From Natrinema longum (GTDB lineage: Archaea > Halobacteriota > Halobacteria > Halobacteriales > Natrialbaceae), in the NCBI RefSeq assembly GCF_017352095.1, contig NZ_CP071463.1, positions 2,170,001-2,234,000 on the forward strand: DNA of 64,000 nucleotides, given 5' to 3'. Positions within the stretch are counted from its first letter, which is position 1; each line of letters begins with the position of its first letter. The notes under the pieces were generated by a model. The model made no database searches and was not told the DNA's origin. It worked only from the letters and a program-made list of their open reading frames with translations. A program made the translations under genes and the position numbers. Shown here in pieces: positions 2,954 through 56,330 of this stretch.

Positions 2954-3146
2954 ATTTGGAGTACGTGAACAAGTGTGAAAACGATTCGTCTTTCTCGTGC
3001 GACGAGCAATCGTGGATCAGCCGTATCATCTGCACTCTATTGGTCTTGAGGCTTCAACACGGCGTTCAGAGGTGAGACGCGACGGTTTGAGCACCTCCAA
3101 AGACGGCGCGGACCTGCTGTGCTGTCACCTCTCTCAGCCGAGTCGC

Positions 3147-3256
3147 GCGTCGGAGATCCGCACCCGACTACGGATCCCCTCTCACTCGAGTTCGGACTCG
3201 AGGGCGATCCGCCGATCCATGTGTGGACCGTCCACCACGAACGTCTCGGAACCACC
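3147..3256 (-). pseudogene. Duplicated, decayed 3' end of dph6
   Basis: Downstream of dph6 the last ~110 bp of that gene recur in the same orientation. The copy translates as ETFVVDGPHMDRRIALESE, nearly identical to the gene, then diverges. A TGG codon of the gene is TGA here (stop at 3182-3184), and several third-base and amino-acid changes follow, while VRI.DA of the true C-terminus is still readable. No start codon or body precedes it, so this is a 3' fragment, not a gene. See the element that separates it from dph6. Confidence 0.85.
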
Positions 3257-3363
3257 TTTTTCCGCTCGGGTTCGGTCACTTCGTTCCCTCACCCATCGCG
3301 CAAAAATCTGGACCAAAAAATCCCGCTCGTTCGCCGCGCCCTCGCTCACTCGCGGTACGCCAC
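3257..3363 (-). repeat. Spacer element with TTTTTGCGCGA and CCGAGCGGAAAAAG cores, copy A
   Basis: Between the dph6 stop and its duplicated tail, reading on the minus strand, lie a T-run, GATTTTTGCGCGA, a short inverted GCGA/TCGC-type region with GAACGAAGTGACC, then CCGAGCGGAAAAAG directly abutting the tail copy. The same order of motifs separates the M29 aminopeptidase gene from its duplicated tail (55.4-55.56 kb). Nothing here looks coding. Confidence 0.7.
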
Positions 3364-4092
3364 CTACGCTTCGAGGTGCGCGTCCGTGATCCGCACTCGT
3401 CCCCGCGTCCCCTCCCATTCGGGTTCGGACTCGAGGGCGATCCGCCGATCCATGTGTGGACCATCCACCACGAACGTCTCGAACTCGCCACCCTCTCCCA
3501 GGATGTGGACGCCGTACTTCTCGTGGAGCGTCTCGAGTTCCGCGATCGCTTCTCGATCGAGGGTTCGACCGAGCCAGGATTCGTCCAGGCCGTGAGCGGC
3601 GACCTGTATGATCTCGATCTCGAAGCCGGCCTCGAGCATCGCGTCGGCCAGTTCCGCGGGGTCTTCCTGCCAGAGCGGAGCGAAGAGATCACAGCCCAGC
3701 CGGTCACACATCCCCTGGATGCGGCTCGTCTGGTACTCGCTCTCGACGGCTCCCGCGGTGACGCCCGCGATGCCCCCCAGGAGGTCGCGATCGAGGGCCT
3801 CGAGGGCGACCTCGAGGGGCTCGAGTTCGTCGTCGCCCTGCACGCTCGAGTCGGTGGCCGTGTCGGCCGCGAAGTCGTCGGGTTCGACGTCGACCAGTTC
3901 GATGCCGATGCTTTCGGCCGCCAGCGCGGCCAGCTCGGTCGCGGGGACGTGATACATGTACGAGTCGCCTGCGGGATGGACAGTGACCAGTCGCTCGACT
4001 GGCAGCCCCTGCTCGAGGGCCTGATACAGCGCCCACGACGAGTCCTTGCCGCCCGAAAAGAGGCTCACCCACGCGCCGTCTGCATCGCTCAT
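3364..4092 (-). CDS. dph6: Diphthine--ammonia ligase
   Basis: A 242-residue adenine-nucleotide alpha-hydrolase-like enzyme that performs the last step of diphthamide synthesis on elongation factor 2, amidating diphthine with ATP and ammonium. The PP-loop SGGKDSS is at residues 13-19. The family block TAGAVESEYQTSRIQGMCDRLGCDLFAPLWQEDP follows in pieces around residues 125-160, and the tail EGGEFETFVVDGP is typical of Dph6 proteins. Length fits the archaeal family. The last ~110 bp are duplicated downstream. A DUF373 gene follows upstream in the same direction with a 48-bp gap, so the two may be co-transcribed. Confidence 0.92.
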   Translation of the reverse strand: MSDADGAWVSLFSGGKDSSWALYQALEQGLPVERLVTVHPAGDSYMYHVPATELAALAAESIGIELVDVEPDDFAADTATDSSVQGDDELEPLEVALEALDRDLLGGIAGVTAGAVESEYQTSRIQGMCDRLGCDLFAPLWQEDPAELADAMLEAGFEIEIIQVAAHGLDESWLGRTLDREAIAELETLHEKYGVHILGEGGEFETFVVDGPHMDRRIALESEPEWEGTRGRVRITDAHLEA

Positions 4093-16797: not shown

Positions 16798-16880
16798 GTG
16801 ATACGGACCGCTGTCAGGCAGTGGCGGCGACCAACGGACCCGTGGGGTCGCGGTCACTCGCGACAGGGGACCGTCCGAAT
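16798..16880 (+). repeat. Dispersed hairpin repeat, copy 3
   Basis: Reads GATACGGACCGCTGTCAGG, CAGTGGCGGCGACC, ACGGACCCGTGGGGTCGC, then CACTCGCGACAGGGGACCGTCC. It lies between the Nudix gene and the MGMT-fold gene, whose 3' ends converge here, a place where a terminator is expected. Confidence 0.65.
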
Positions 16881-46463: not shown

Positions 46464-46681
46464 CTGAATAGATTCTTACGCCTATCGGTCCATCACATTC
46501 GAGTCATCAATATCCTACCCATAGATCATGTATTAGTGATTAGATTTATGAGGATGGCAACAGAGCCGTTGAATTACGGGAAAGTGAAACTGGCAGACTA
46601 ATCGGTAGGCCTGCCAGAAACAAGCGGTCCGGTGTGTAGGCACCGAGCCGCGACAGCTCCCGTATTCCAGCTCCGGAAGCC

Positions 46682-47112
46682 ATGTCCGACCACAATTCGC
46701 GGGCCCTTGAAGGCCCCGACCGATCAGGTGCATCGATGTCGAACGCTCGAGTCCGCGCCGATGGCGGGACACAAAACGAGTCCGTCCGCGATTGCCTCGC
46801 GTCGATCGACTACCTCACGCGCACCTTGCTCGCGTCCATCCGGATGACGAGACGGACCTCGGGACGACCACCCACGAGAGCCGTCTCGAGGCCGCGCGAC
46901 ACGTCCGCGGGATCAGGGTGGAGGCCAGTCGGGTCGGACTGTTGTTGGTCGGCCCCGAAGCGGTGATCCCCTACCAGCCGGGCGACGATCCCGACCGCGG
47001 TTCGTCGCCGACCGATCGCTCGCGCTCGTTCACGACCGCCTATCTCGGGCCGGACGCGGAGGCCCTCGAGCGCCAGCGGGGGGAGAGTGGGTGTGACAGT
47101 GGTGATAAATGA
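46682..47112 (+). pseudogene. Frameshifted gene, copy A of a duplicated pair
   Basis: From ATG (MSDHNSRALEGPDRSG) the frame reads well to DCLASIDYLTRTLLAS; thereafter, around 46830, sense continues in another frame as HPDDETDLGTTTHESRLEAA, VEASRVGLLLVGPEAVIPYQ, and TDRSRSFTTAYLGPDAEALE to TGA at 47112. A small indel therefore split the gene. No known family. The same gene, more degraded, lies at 48.29-48.55 kb; about 70 bp of upstream sequence are shared as well. Confidence 0.75.
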
Positions 47113-47201
47113 TGTCGGTGCAGCGGTGGTCAGACGTTGTCAGAGTTCGAGGAGACGAGACTGTCAGCGAACGTAACTGACGAGAGAGTCGGTTGCCTCG
47201 G

Positions 47202-47510
47202 TCACGAGCCTGCGTTCGATTCGCCCTTGCCAGTATCGATATCGTCTCGTGCAATCGACTGGACGCCCCACGGAACGATGCGACTATCGTCGGGAGTGCC
47301 GCCACGAATCCATGCATTCGCAGGAATTTCGATCAGTCCATCCATCCAGGTTTTGGTCGTGAGTGAGAGCGTGATGTACTGCTCGCCGTGGAACGGCCGT
47401 CCGTCGTGGTTCGAAAGGACGAGCCACGGTCGCGCTGCATCGTCCCCCTTGTACGGATCAGCACCGTAAACGACGTCTCCACGCTGGTAAATCGGCTCAC
47501 TGCCACTCAC
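47202..47510 (-). CDS. PemK/MazF-family toxin (probable mRNA endoribonuclease)
   Basis: A 102-residue MazF/PemK-fold protein: YQRGDVVYGADPY (residues 8-20), ARPWLVLSN (26-34), YITLSLTTKTW and WIRGGTPDDSRIVPWGV. Family members cleave mRNA at short motifs. It starts with GTG overlapping the TGA of the partner upstream (GTGA), the usual coupling of toxin-antitoxin genes. Toxicity is inferred from family; some haloarchaeal MazF homologues are weak. Confidence 0.85.
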   Translation of the reverse strand: MSGSEPIYQRGDVVYGADPYKGDDAARPWLVLSNHDGRPFHGEQYITLSLTTKTWMDGLIEIPANAWIRGGTPDDSRIVPWGVQSIARDDIDTGKGESNAGS

Positions 47511-47881
47511 TGTGAGTCCTCCTCGAGACTCGGATGGGGCTCCGACGGCGCGTGTTCTTTCCACGCCGCTTTCTCCTCGGCTCCGAACTGCTCGTTGAAC
47601 AGGCGCGTCGCACGGCTGTAGCCGTCGTATCGCTCGAGTCGCTGTGCATCGCTCGTGATCGCCCAGTACGTCCCCTTGTGTTCGACCAGTTCGCGGTTTT
47701 TCAGCCGTGTCAGTGCCGTGCTGACCGTCCCGCCGTCGAGTTCCGTTCGGGCCGCGATCTCCGTCGCCTTGAACGCGCGATCGTCGTTCGCAGCCAGAAA
47801 GCCGAGCACCTGCTCCGTGCTGGAGAGTTCCTCGAGTTCGTCCTCGCTCGAGTGGTCAAACGTCTCCCGATCGATGGACAT
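47507..47881 (-). CDS. Winged-helix antitoxin/regulator of the PemK/MazF pair
   Basis: A 124-residue MarR-like winged helix (STEQVLGFLAANDDRAFKA, ARTELDGGTVSTALTRLKNR) with a charged C-terminus that could cap the toxin. It is first in the operon. A TATA box (about 47904-47910) lies 23-29 nt before the ATG and a near-palindrome TAATGGCCGTTA (47923-47934) lies just behind it, so autoregulation is likely. Antitoxin role is inferred from gene order and overlap. Confidence 0.78.
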   Translation of the reverse strand: MSIDRETFDHSSEDELEELSSTEQVLGFLAANDDRAFKATEIAARTELDGGTVSTALTRLKNRELVEHKGTYWAITSDAQRLERYDGYSRATRLFNEQFGAEEKAAWKEHAPSEPHPSLEEDSQ

Positions 47882-47903
47882 GATCGAGACTACTGTAGCG
47901 CGT

Positions 47904-47934
47904 GTTATATGCGTTACTCCTGTAATGGCCGTTA
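47904..47934 (-). promoter_or_regulatory. Toxin-antitoxin promoter and near-palindromic operator
   Basis: ATATAAC TATA box followed upstream by TAATGGCCGTTA, 10 of 12 positions symmetric. The position in the BRE/TATA region fits repression by the winged-helix antitoxin. Confidence 0.5.
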
Positions 47935-48225
47935 TTGCGCGTCGTACAGGATATTCTCTGCGATGAGCTGGGGGGAACGAGTTCGTGCACTCCCCCGTCG
48001 TTGTGGAGTTACTCGATAATATCTCTATCGACCGGCGTCATCCAGTCGGCTAACCTCGGGCGTATCTGGAGCCACGACGTTCTCTCCCCGTTTGACTATT
48101 TTCATTGCGTAGTTGCTAGAGACAATAGAGTTCGATGAACAATAGAACTGTCGTTAGTTTTGATTCGGATGAAAACAATACTGTTTGTCACGGGAACGAT
48201 ATACGGGTCCATTCGATTGATCCGT
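47935..48225. other. AT-richer gap without a recognisable gene
   Basis: Between the toxin-antitoxin promoter and pseudogene copy B. It is visibly AT-richer than the flanks; short frames on both strands have no family features or haloarchaeal acidic composition. Likely decayed accessory DNA. Confidence 0.4.
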
Positions 48226-48291
48226 GGCAAAATGCAGTCCAGTGTATAGGCACCGGACTGCGCTACCTCCCGTATCAGTGCTACAGAAGCC

Positions 48292-48545
48292 ATGTCCGAC
48301 TACAATTCGCGAGCCCTTGAAGGCCCCGATCGATCAGGACGGAGGCCAGCCAGGTTGGGCAGTTACTGGTTGGTCCCGAGGCGATGATCCCCTACCGGCC
48401 GGGTGACGATCCCGACCGCGATTCGTCGCCGACCGATCGCTCGCGCTCGTTCACGACCGCCTATCTCGGGCCGGACGCGGAGTCCCTCGAGTCCGAACTC
48501 GAGCGCCAGCGTGGGGCGACTAGCGATGAGAGCGATACAGAATAA
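48292..48545 (+). pseudogene. Internally deleted gene, copy B of the duplicated pair
   Basis: Starts ATG TCC GAC TAC AAT like copy A, reads 16 codons, then jumps from CGATCAGG of the 5' part to the sequence after GATCAGG at 46910 of copy A: about 185 bp are missing between two copies of GATCAGG. The 3' part is still readable in one frame (EASQVGQLLVGPEAMIPYRP, TDRSRSFTTAYLGPDAESLE) to TAA at 48545. It is not in frame with the ATG. Neither copy can make the full protein. Confidence 0.75.
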
Positions 48546-54225: not shown

Positions 54226-54308
54226 GCGACCACGACCGACCCGATCGAACGCCGACGACGGATTCCCAATCACGAACCGTTTTTTCCTCCCCCTGCAAAT
54301 ACCGGGGC

Positions 54309-55409
54309 ATGGACCCGCGAATCCGCGAACACGCTGAGATCATCGCCGATCACTCGGTCGACCTGGAGGAAGGCGACAACGTCGTCGTCGACGCCCATCC
54401 AGTCGCAGAGGACCTGGTCGTTGCTCTCCACGAAGTGATCGGCGACCGAGGCGCGAACCCGATCACGACGAGCCAGCGAACCGGGAAACGACAGCAGCGT
54501 GCGTATCTCCGGGCTGCTGACGACGAGTTCGACACGCCGGAACACGAACTCGCTCTCATTCGGAACACCGACGTCTACATCGCCATCCGCGCCACGGACA
54601 ACGTCACCCAGACCAGCGATGTCGATCCCGAGACGCAAGCGGCCCACCAGCAGGCCCACCGTCCCATCCTCGAGGAACGCCTCTCCAAACGTTGGTGTCT
54701 CACTCAGTACCCCGCACCCGCAAACGCCCAACTCGCCGAGATGAGCACTGAGGGGTACGAGAATTTCGTCTGGGACGCCGTCAACAAGGACTGGGAGGCA
54801 CAGCGCGAACACCAGGAACACATGGTCGAACTCATGGATCCCGCCGAAGAGATCCGGATCAAGAGCGGCGACACGACCGACGTGACGATGTCGATCGACG
54901 GCAATCCGACGATCAACGACCACGGCGAACACAACCTCCCCGGGGGCGAGGTCTTCACCGCACCCCAGCCCGACAGCGTCGAGGGCGAGGTCCTCTTCGA
55001 CATGCCGCTGTACCACCAGGGCCGGGAGATCACCGACGTCTTCCTCGAGTTCGAGGGTGGCGAGGTCGTCTCCCACTCGGCGGCGAAGAACGAGGACGTG
55101 CTGACGGAAGTGCTCAACACCGACGACGGCGCGCGTCGACTCGGCGAACTCGGCATCGGGATGAACCGCGACATCGACCGGTTTACCTACAACATGCTCT
55201 TCGACGAGAAGATGGGCGACACCGTCCACATGGCCGTCGGCCGGGCCTACGACGACACCGTCGGCGAGGGCAACGAGGCCAACGACTCCGCCGTCCACGT
55301 CGATATGATCGTCGACATGAGCGAAGATTCGTTCATCGAAGTCGACGGTGAAGTGGTACAGCGGAACGGAACGTTCCGATTCGAGGACGGGTTCGCGGAC
55401 GACGTTTGA
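54309..55409 (+). CDS. Aminopeptidase, peptidase family M29
   Basis: A 366-residue M29 (AmpS/AmpT-type) metallo-aminopeptidase. Expected parts are ADHSVDLEEGDNVVVDAHP at the N-terminus, FTAPQPDSVEGEVLFDMPL, NEDVLTEVLNTDDGARRLGE with the metal-binding Glu, and VHVDMIVDM with the HxD ligands near the C-terminus. It should release N-terminal residues from peptides, using Co2+ or Zn2+. Its last ~110 bp, including the stop and 20 bp beyond, are repeated downstream. Confidence 0.92.
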   Translation: MDPRIREHAEIIADHSVDLEEGDNVVVDAHPVAEDLVVALHEVIGDRGANPITTSQRTGKRQQRAYLRAADDEFDTPEHELALIRNTDVYIAIRATDNVTQTSDVDPETQAAHQQAHRPILEERLSKRWCLTQYPAPANAQLAEMSTEGYENFVWDAVNKDWEAQREHQEHMVELMDPAEEIRIKSGDTTDVTMSIDGNPTINDHGEHNLPGGEVFTAPQPDSVEGEVLFDMPLYHQGREITDVFLEFEGGEVVSHSAAKNEDVLTEVLNTDDGARRLGELGIGMNRDIDRFTYNMLFDEKMGDTVHMAVGRAYDDTVGEGNEANDSAVHVDMIVDMSEDSFIEVDGEVVQRNGTFRFEDGFADDV

Positions 55410-55431
55410 TCGGCGCGACCGCCTCGAGCTA

Positions 55432-55554
55432 TCGAACGCGAGCGTCGTGAGCCGCGAGGAGGAGCGGCCGCGACGAACGGTCGTGAGTCGCGGCATTTTT
55501 CATCGAAGTTTTTGCGCGAGCGGTCGCGAAGCGACCCGAGCGGAAAAAGTTCGG
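55432..55554 (+). repeat. Spacer element with TTTTTGCGCGA and CCGAGCGGAAAAAG cores, copy B
   Basis: Separates the aminopeptidase gene from its duplicated tail. It contains a GGTCGTGAGTCGCGGC run, GCATTTTTCATCGAAG, TTTTTGCGCGAGCGGTCGC, GAAGCGACC and CCGAGCGGAAAAAG right before the tail copy. Same order and same end sequences as in the dph6 case. Confidence 0.7.
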
Positions 55555-55662
55555 AGCGATTCGTTCATCGAAGTCGACGGCGAAGTGGTCCAGCGGAACG
55601 GAACGTTCCGATTCGAGGACGGGTTCTCGGATGACGTTTGATCGGCGCGACCGCCTCGAGCA
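55555..55662 (+). pseudogene. Duplicated 3' end of the M29 aminopeptidase gene
   Basis: About 105 bp almost identical to 55322-55431: DSFIEVDGEVVQRNGTFRF in the same frame, then EDGFSDDV and the TGA, and the next ~20 bp after the stop are also copied (TCGGCGCGACCGCCTCGAGC). Only about five differences are seen, three of them synonymous and one Ala to Ser. There is no start, so it is a 3' fragment. Confidence 0.9.
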
Positions 55663-55822
55663 GCCGGCGGCGGCGACCGCTCGAGTCTCGTCTCGTTCAG
55701 CCCGGCCGCTCGCCGTCGGCGGTGGGTCCGATGTGTCGTCCGATGACGGGTAACCGACTGTCGCCACGACTCGAGCGGGAAGTATCGGGCGGGTTTATAC
55801 TCCTGAACGGTCGATCACAGGT

Positions 55823-56242
55823 ATGGCAATACTCGTCGCATACGACGGCTCCGCGCCCGCACAGGAAGCGGTCGAACACGCGTTTACGACCTATCCGGAC
55901 CAAGAGATCGTCCTGTTGCGTGTGATCGAAGCGGCGGAGGGATCGACGGGAGCCGGAATCAAACTCGCACAGGAGGTGTTTCGGGAGCGAGAGGAGAAAG
56001 TCTCCACGGAACTGCCAACGGAGATTTCGGACCTGATCAGCGATCCCGACAGGGAGTTTCGGACCGAAACCGCCGTCGGGAAACCCGCACGGGAGGTCGT
56101 CTCGTTCGCCGAGGAGAACGACGACATCGAGCACATCGTCATCGGAAGCCACGGCCGAGCCGGTCTCTCCCGCGTCCTGCTCGGCAGCGTCGCGGAAACG
56201 ATCGTCCGACGGGCCCCGGTCCCGGTCACCGTCATCCGCTGA
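55823..56242 (+). CDS. Universal stress protein family protein
   Basis: A 139-residue UspA-like protein: VAYDGSAPAQEAVEHA at the start and the nucleotide loop IVIGSHGRAGLSRVLLGSVA near the end, the full ATP-binding pattern. The GTTTATACT box 21-29 nt before the ATG indicates a leaderless mRNA. Confidence 0.94.
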   Translation: MAILVAYDGSAPAQEAVEHAFTTYPDQEIVLLRVIEAAEGSTGAGIKLAQEVFREREEKVSTELPTEISDLISDPDREFRTETAVGKPAREVVSFAEENDDIEHIVIGSHGRAGLSRVLLGSVAETIVRRAPVPVTVIR

Positions 56243-56243
56243 G

Positions 56244-56330
56244 ACGGGTTGCCGTAACGATTTACCGGCGACCCCACGGACGAGTCCGCGGGTCGCCGGC
56301 ACTGTCTGACAGCGGTCCGTCTGCGGACGC
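56244..56330 (-). repeat. Dispersed hairpin repeat, copy 6
   Basis: The clearest hairpin. On the minus strand: CGGACCGCTGTCAG, CAGTGCC, then GGCGACCCgCGGAC-tc-GTCCGtGGGGTCGCC, then GGTAAATCGTTACGGC. Stem of about 13 bp with one mismatch. It is exactly between the convergent 3' ends of the Usp gene and the next gene. Confidence 0.7.

Follow-up and report, generated by a model that had tools for sequence, protein, structure and literature searches.

The window, by which we mean the whole 64,000-nucleotide stretch of Natrinema longum DNA analysed here, contains two loci at which a protein-coding gene is followed by a short non-coding cassette and then by a second, detached copy of the gene's own end. 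Locus A lies behind a gene for an M29 family metallopeptidase and locus B behind dph6; their features, with the basis of each assignment in brackets, are as follows.

Locus A:
54309..55409, + strand: host gene A, M29 family metallopeptidase (M29 aminopeptidase), 366 aa (open reading frame; Pfam PF02073, E=1e-65)
55326..55429, + strand: tail copy 1, attached to the gene, comprising its final 84 nt including the stop codon plus 20 nt (repeat search)
55467..55500, + strand: stem-loop GCCGCGAC...GTCGCGGC, then the first T-run, terminator-like (sequence)
55496..55513, + strand: cassette left end TTTTTCATCGAAGTTTTT, CATCGAAG subtype (pattern search)
55514..55553, + strand: hairpin GCGCGAG..CGAGCGG, followed by the A-run and the GTTCG right end (sequence; compensatory changes in the consensus fold of the sister subtype, GGTCCAGA)
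55558..55661, + strand: tail copy 2, detached (repeat search; missing in the same-species genome G010)

Locus B:
3364..4092, - strand: host gene B, dph6, diphthine--ammonia ligase (TIGR03679, E=6e-79, above cut-off)
3372..3481, - strand: dph6 tail copy 1 (repeat search)
3302..3319, - strand: cassette left end TTTTTGGTCCAGATTTTT, GGTCCAGA subtype (pattern search)
3251..3301, - strand: hairpin, A-run and right end AAAAAGGTGG (sequence)
3139..3248, - strand: dph6 tail copy 2, detached, with an in-frame TGA (repeat search)

The direct repeat at locus A is 104 nt long with 96% identity and a period of 232, and that at locus B is 110 nt long with 87% identity and a period of 233. An earlier sequence-only reading had claimed a cassette plus gene-tail copy at two unrelated genes, and repeat and pattern searches across the window confirm both, after the M29 gene (+ strand) and after dph6 (- strand); the segment it singled out spans the cassette and second copy of locus A, and the first copy starts at 55326. 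Two short cores occur exactly twice each in the window, CCGAGCGGAAAAAG at 55536-55549 (+) and 3256-3269 (-), and TTTTTGCGCGA at 55509-55519 (+) and 3296-3306 (-). Taken alone, these cores are close to chance frequency in 64 kb; unlike them, their joint arrangement with the tail copies is beyond chance.

Repeats of other kinds were also seen. Two direct repeats at 46619-48491 of the window (110 nt at 82% and 160 nt at 89%, copies 1.4-1.6 kb apart) surround a reverse-strand ORF-like stretch, suggesting either an insertion or a duplicated pseudogene, and a 41-nt inverted repeat pair (16803-16843 and 56280-56320, 88%) around CACTGTCTGACAGCGGTCCGT is possibly a dispersed intergenic repeat. Elsewhere in the same genome (G000), a 198-bp direct repeat at 98% identity contains a tRNA-like sequence (C1:2054131-2054684, L070), and 63-bp tandem repeats immediately adjoin another (C1:2110054-2110255, L073).

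The cassettes belong to a family with a set order of parts: two T-runs separated by an 8-nt tag, then a hairpin whose arms both carry CGAG, then an A-run and a short right end. The sequence-only reading had taken the two loci to hold a single element; the cassette and tail copy are indeed present at both, but the loci represent two sister subtypes, one with the tag CATCGAAG and right end GTTCG (locus A), the other with GGTCCAGA and GGTGG (locus B). A terminator-like stem-loop ahead of the T-run, between the tail copies, is clear in locus A. The locus A left end TTTTTCATCGAAGTTTTT occurs at 2 places in its own genome and at 23 or more places in 13 of the 29 genus genomes (reversed control, 0), and tail copies are mostly absent in this subtype. 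The exact 18-mer TTTTTGGTCCAGATTTTT of the other subtype is found in 73 of 125 genomes of the taxonomic family, representing 21 of 29 genera, and its reversed pattern in none of them. Cassettes that start with it usually close with AAAAAGGTGG 60-85 nt on. In its own genome (3.59 Mb) it stands at three places, behind ileS, dph6 and argF, each time with a tail copy, and in the 29 genus genomes at about 86 non-redundant places, 58 of them with a tail copy (at least 22 nt with a score of at least 20). Across the Halobacteria, the matches listed include Haloferax, Haloarcula, Halorhabdus, Halococcus, Halorussus, Halorientalis and Natrinema, among others, and tail copies are present also in Haloferax, Haloarcula, Halosimplex and Halorhabdus, among other genera. 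Copies per genome are few (0-9).

Under a strict two-end pattern (18-mer, 20-75 nt, AAAAA(A)GGTGG) there are 91 matches. The boundary on the right (GGTGG and the next 4-5 nt) hardly varies across independent genes, which speaks for a defined end of the element and against random crossovers. Both-sided compensatory changes in the hairpin were found at 7 of 15 consensus pairs in a hand-picked set of 28 cassettes. By eye, the cassette ends look only loosely inverted (CCAGATTTTTGCGCGAG / CCACCTTTTTCCGCTCG), which would make them imperfect rather than true terminal inverted repeats. Rfam covariance models gave no match at E<=1 over window positions 54300-56000. A viral or bacterial origin was rejected: the five viral matches to the 18-mer, and the bacterial ones, look like chance, because both the hairpin and the AAAAAGGTGG end are missing from them. 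A literature search, with subscription journals and preprints outside its scope, found GGTCCAGATTTTT in no paper and no account of such gene-tail copies.

Among GGTCCAGA-type cassettes with enough flank, a copy of the upstream gene's tail lies behind 80 of 111, a count that includes orthologous loci and so does not represent independent events. The copies vary from 28 to 130 bp or more at unrelated genes, and 13 or more unrelated gene families, mostly housekeeping, are involved: dph6, ileS, argF, an SDR oxidoreductase, pheT, purH, gatB, hisH, sufS, a PINA-like ATPase, an MBL-fold protein and an etfA-like gene, with the M29 gene for the CATCGAAG subtype. Where a gene was called at a copy-bearing locus, it lay on the + strand upstream of the 18-mer in all cases but one. 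A reverse scan blind to the cassette, covering 1,310 gene 3' ends (1.6 Mb, two genomes), returned five tail copies, four with a cassette and one a coding paralog; the M29 duplication was missed at 3' ends and listed as 5' instead because the gene caller had chosen another frame. Both counts uphold the earlier claim that cassette and tail copy are linked by more than coincidence. Cassettes lacking a copy, which had been named in advance as the sign of a coincidental link, do occur (31 of 111), yet they do not make it one, because about half are placed between convergent genes and roughly five more look like duplicates that have decayed or been truncated.

A single host gene's junction can be constant across species and genera, as in ileS (GGTGGATGCC|GAGATC), and argF has at least two different junctions. 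At L221 (129 bp, 100%), L231 and L235, very similar copies run right up to the cassette T-run. At 31 of 58 loci (10 of 10 for dph6, 1 of 6 for purH) the sequence strictly nearest to copy 2 is copy 1 of its own genome, and at the other 27 it is not, a pattern that suggests that some loci, but not all, have undergone gene conversion or are of recent origin. Tandem arrays exist (three 145-bp units in G011:C10), and at dph6 in G009 the alignment reads as an apparent deletion, with the end of copy 2 remaining as a scar. A dph6 ortholog in another genome (G007:C1:1162591-1163317) is split, with an overlapping internal repeat in which residues 107-139 occur twice; this is a different, intragenic duplication. 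Simple tandem duplication of tail plus spacer was rejected as an account of the tail copies, in that the spacer belongs to a dispersed family and a tail copy, not a spacer, closes the arrays. The reading of the tail copy as an independent small open reading frame is not supported, in that junction frames vary by host gene and, as read from the junctions, some copies begin with an in-frame TAG (SDR, argF).

The hairpin of the cassette is probably a two-way transcription stop signal. In Haloferax volcanii a T5C stretch terminated 95% of transcripts (PMC7237163), and it is from such T-run termination, together with the anatomy of the cassette, that we infer a terminator function here; at locus A the hairpin, A-run and GTTCG end are terminator-like for the - strand. 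Of the copy-less cassettes, 16 of 31 lie between convergent (+ and -) genes, and about five read as decayed or truncated duplicates (L188, L214, L025, L135, L136). At cassettes between convergent genes T-runs stand just past the stop codons on both strands, and in many of them a reverse-strand stop codon follows a few nucleotides past GGTGG. The placement of copy-less cassettes suggests that the cassette is primarily a bidirectional terminator, in which case RNA 3' ends would be expected at TTTTT before and after GGTCCAGA on the + strand and at CCACCTTTTT on the - strand. In Haloferax, Halococcus and Halomarina (L288, L318, L321), the right end of the cassette abuts the 3' end of an apparent tRNA gene on the opposite strand.

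Comparison of genomes of the same species yields two informative pairs of empty and filled sites. At pheT, G000 is empty (...GCGAGCGGTTCTTTTT|CGGCC...) and G010 is filled at GGTTCTTTTT, with the order copy 1 through its stop and hairpin to the T-run, cassette, copy 2 with hairpin and T-run, and native flank; this pair agrees with the proposal of the sequence-only reading that insertion occurs near a gene's 3' end with duplication of the target, and it places the insertion at the gene's own terminator T-run. From the stop codon to GGTGG, G010 pheT is 97.8% identical to G022, a genome of another species, but over the upstream coding sequence the two share only 90.0%; copy 2 and flank, by contrast, match those of G000 at 90.8%. 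The SDR gene shows the same contrast between G000 (empty) and G010 (filled), its native flank being without a comparable T-run in the stretch compared; identity between the two is 98.2% over the coding sequence, 91.4% over the last 70 nt, and 96.3% over copy 2 and flank. In both cases the end of copy 1 and the cassette look foreign, beside a native copy 2 and flank, on a signal of one site at pheT and a few sites at SDR; none of the three sampled donors has the substitutions seen at SDR positions -46 and -34. Apart from the cassette, the foreign tract covers no more than roughly the final 70 nt of the gene, so the homology arms would be short. An empty site alone does not prove direction, because direct repeats can recombine out exactly.

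The closest relatives of the locus A cassette are cassettes behind the same gene, M29, in other species. Each copy differs from G010 at 7 of 104 nt and both carry the same 20 nt of lineage-specific non-coding sequence, so that import and local duplication are indistinguishable there. In G017, as read from the alignment, copy 2 has a tail and flank resembling the gene end of another species (L049) and copy 1 differs, which suggests a displaced native end behind a gene end rebuilt from foreign DNA.

Between species, the identity of downstream flanks (0.47-0.54) equals the background of the aligner, and cassette identity exceeds coding-sequence identity in 38 pairs. In four of these comparisons between species the coding sequence stands at 0.94-0.96, the cassette at 0.98-1.00 and the flanks at 0.48-0.50; in two other pairs (coding sequence 0.93-0.95) the flanks are kept at 0.81-0.86. 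High cassette identity beside background-level flanks indicates that cassette and flank have different histories.

We propose, with a probability of about 0.5, that the cassette is a mobile bidirectional terminator spread by recombination, with the tail copy conserved as a homology arm. At a subset of genes the layout would be gene tail (T), cassette (C), tail copy (T') and flank. Once T-C-T' is present at a gene, homologous recombination would spread it between strains and species, with T as the left arm and T' as the right, both matching the same gene in any recipient despite unconserved intergenic DNA; the tail copy would be conserved as the right-hand arm because it is coding-derived. The recipient's own tail would be pushed downstream to become copy 2, and the direct repeats might afterwards be homogenised by gene conversion, expanded to tandem arrays, or deleted. 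The first T-C-T' at a new gene would be a rare event, and its geometry, with the T-run on the left and short purine-rich GAGA/AGAA matches (by eye) on the right, resembles microhomology-mediated template switching or staggered-break fill-in. We infer recombination as the vehicle from the two clear same-species cases and the pairwise identities. The unit is short, as had been claimed, and non-coding (about 130-230 bp), but an integrase or transposase acting in trans, the possible mover suggested earlier, is not supported: target duplications are variable (28-130 bp or more), and the foreign copy 1 end and cassette against native copy 2 and flank fit homologous recombination. No integrase was found among the window's open reading frames adjoining locus A or locus B, and the unit itself is without a gene.

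The alternative that fares best is a non-autonomous mobile element, MITE-like or SINE-like, that places the cassette in the T-runs of terminators and in doing so duplicates a long, staggered target; in the SINE-like version, a minus-strand transcript ending ...TCTGGACCAAAAA would prime at the target T-run. Ends fixed class-wide, the constant right end, the pheT insertion at a terminator T-run, variable duplications, and freshest duplications that extend exactly to the cassette T-run would all suit such an element. We nevertheless regard it as unlikely, given that copies per genome are few, that insertion into new genes is rare, to judge from the recurrence of identical host genes and junctions across genera, that copy 1 end and cassette look foreign in informative cases, and that the terminal inverted repeats look imperfect. 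The constant right end favours a defined element, and the foreign/native pattern favours recombination. The two may hold together, recombination having spread what a rare first insertion began.

More unlikely still is template switching during replication or repair at hairpin terminators, whereby a 3' end located at a T-run would copy a different terminator and then go back upstream into the gene tail by microhomology, producing both the insertion and the duplication with no element involved. The T-run at the left switch would be explained, as would the rapid exchange of hairpin stems between conserved ends and, by eye, the frequent start of copies at GAGA/AGAA-like sites near the post-cassette sequence of convergent genes (TAGAAC, GAAGG). 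However, random re-entry should also produce insertions with deletions and variable right ends, whereas the right end is nearly constant, and switching alone leaves spread between species unexplained. That ordinary terminators and unrelated tandem gene-end duplications merely coincide is highly improbable: copy-less cassettes do exist, but the 80 of 111 association, the cassette in every non-paralog tail copy of the blind scan, and junctions shared by orthologous genes across genera contradict it.

To return to the mobile terminator spread by recombination, it may represent a micro-element of a new class, whether selfish or useful: a bidirectional terminator that moves between species, with a copy of its host gene's 3' end (carried along or newly made) as homology arm, and leaves the gene intact; this we put forward tentatively, as somewhat doubtful. 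If true, a regulatory DNA module of less than 250 bp would have an enzyme-free route between species, a borrowed coding end would give homology where intergenic DNA offers none, and the exchange and homogenisation of haloarchaeal terminators would be revealed. For annotators, detached gene tails behind genes recur in Halobacteria and are not assembly errors.

Several known systems share parts of this arrangement. Archaeal T-run (intrinsic) terminators, including the T5C of Haloferax volcanii (PMC7237163), likewise place T-runs past stop codons, with hairpins that can aid termination; here, by contrast, an exact 18-mer whose T-runs enclose an 8-nt tag occurs class-wide, together with a fixed right end, and is tied to gene-tail copies. 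REP/BIME and MITE palindromes are short, non-coding, intergenic, hairpin-forming, dispersed and capable of termination, and the cassette shares the first five of these traits and probably the last. In MITEs the target duplications are short and of fixed length and the inverted repeats derive from IS elements, whereas the duplications here are variable, from 28 to >130 bp, and to our knowledge REPs do not duplicate the tail of a neighbouring gene. Homology-facilitated illegitimate recombination and paired-nick duplications leave a homologous junction paired with a microhomology junction, or else tandem duplications that contain filler DNA; the junction types are alike, but here the inserted DNA is one and the same element every time, and its end is constant. 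Integrative elements and prophages that target gene 3' ends (for example, icd and tRNA-gene integrations) carry an integrase and kilobases of cargo. As in those elements, incoming DNA appears to rebuild the gene end and the displaced native end lies downstream (here SDR and pheT in G010 versus G000), but the cassette unit is about 130-230 bp, geneless, and found at many unrelated genes.
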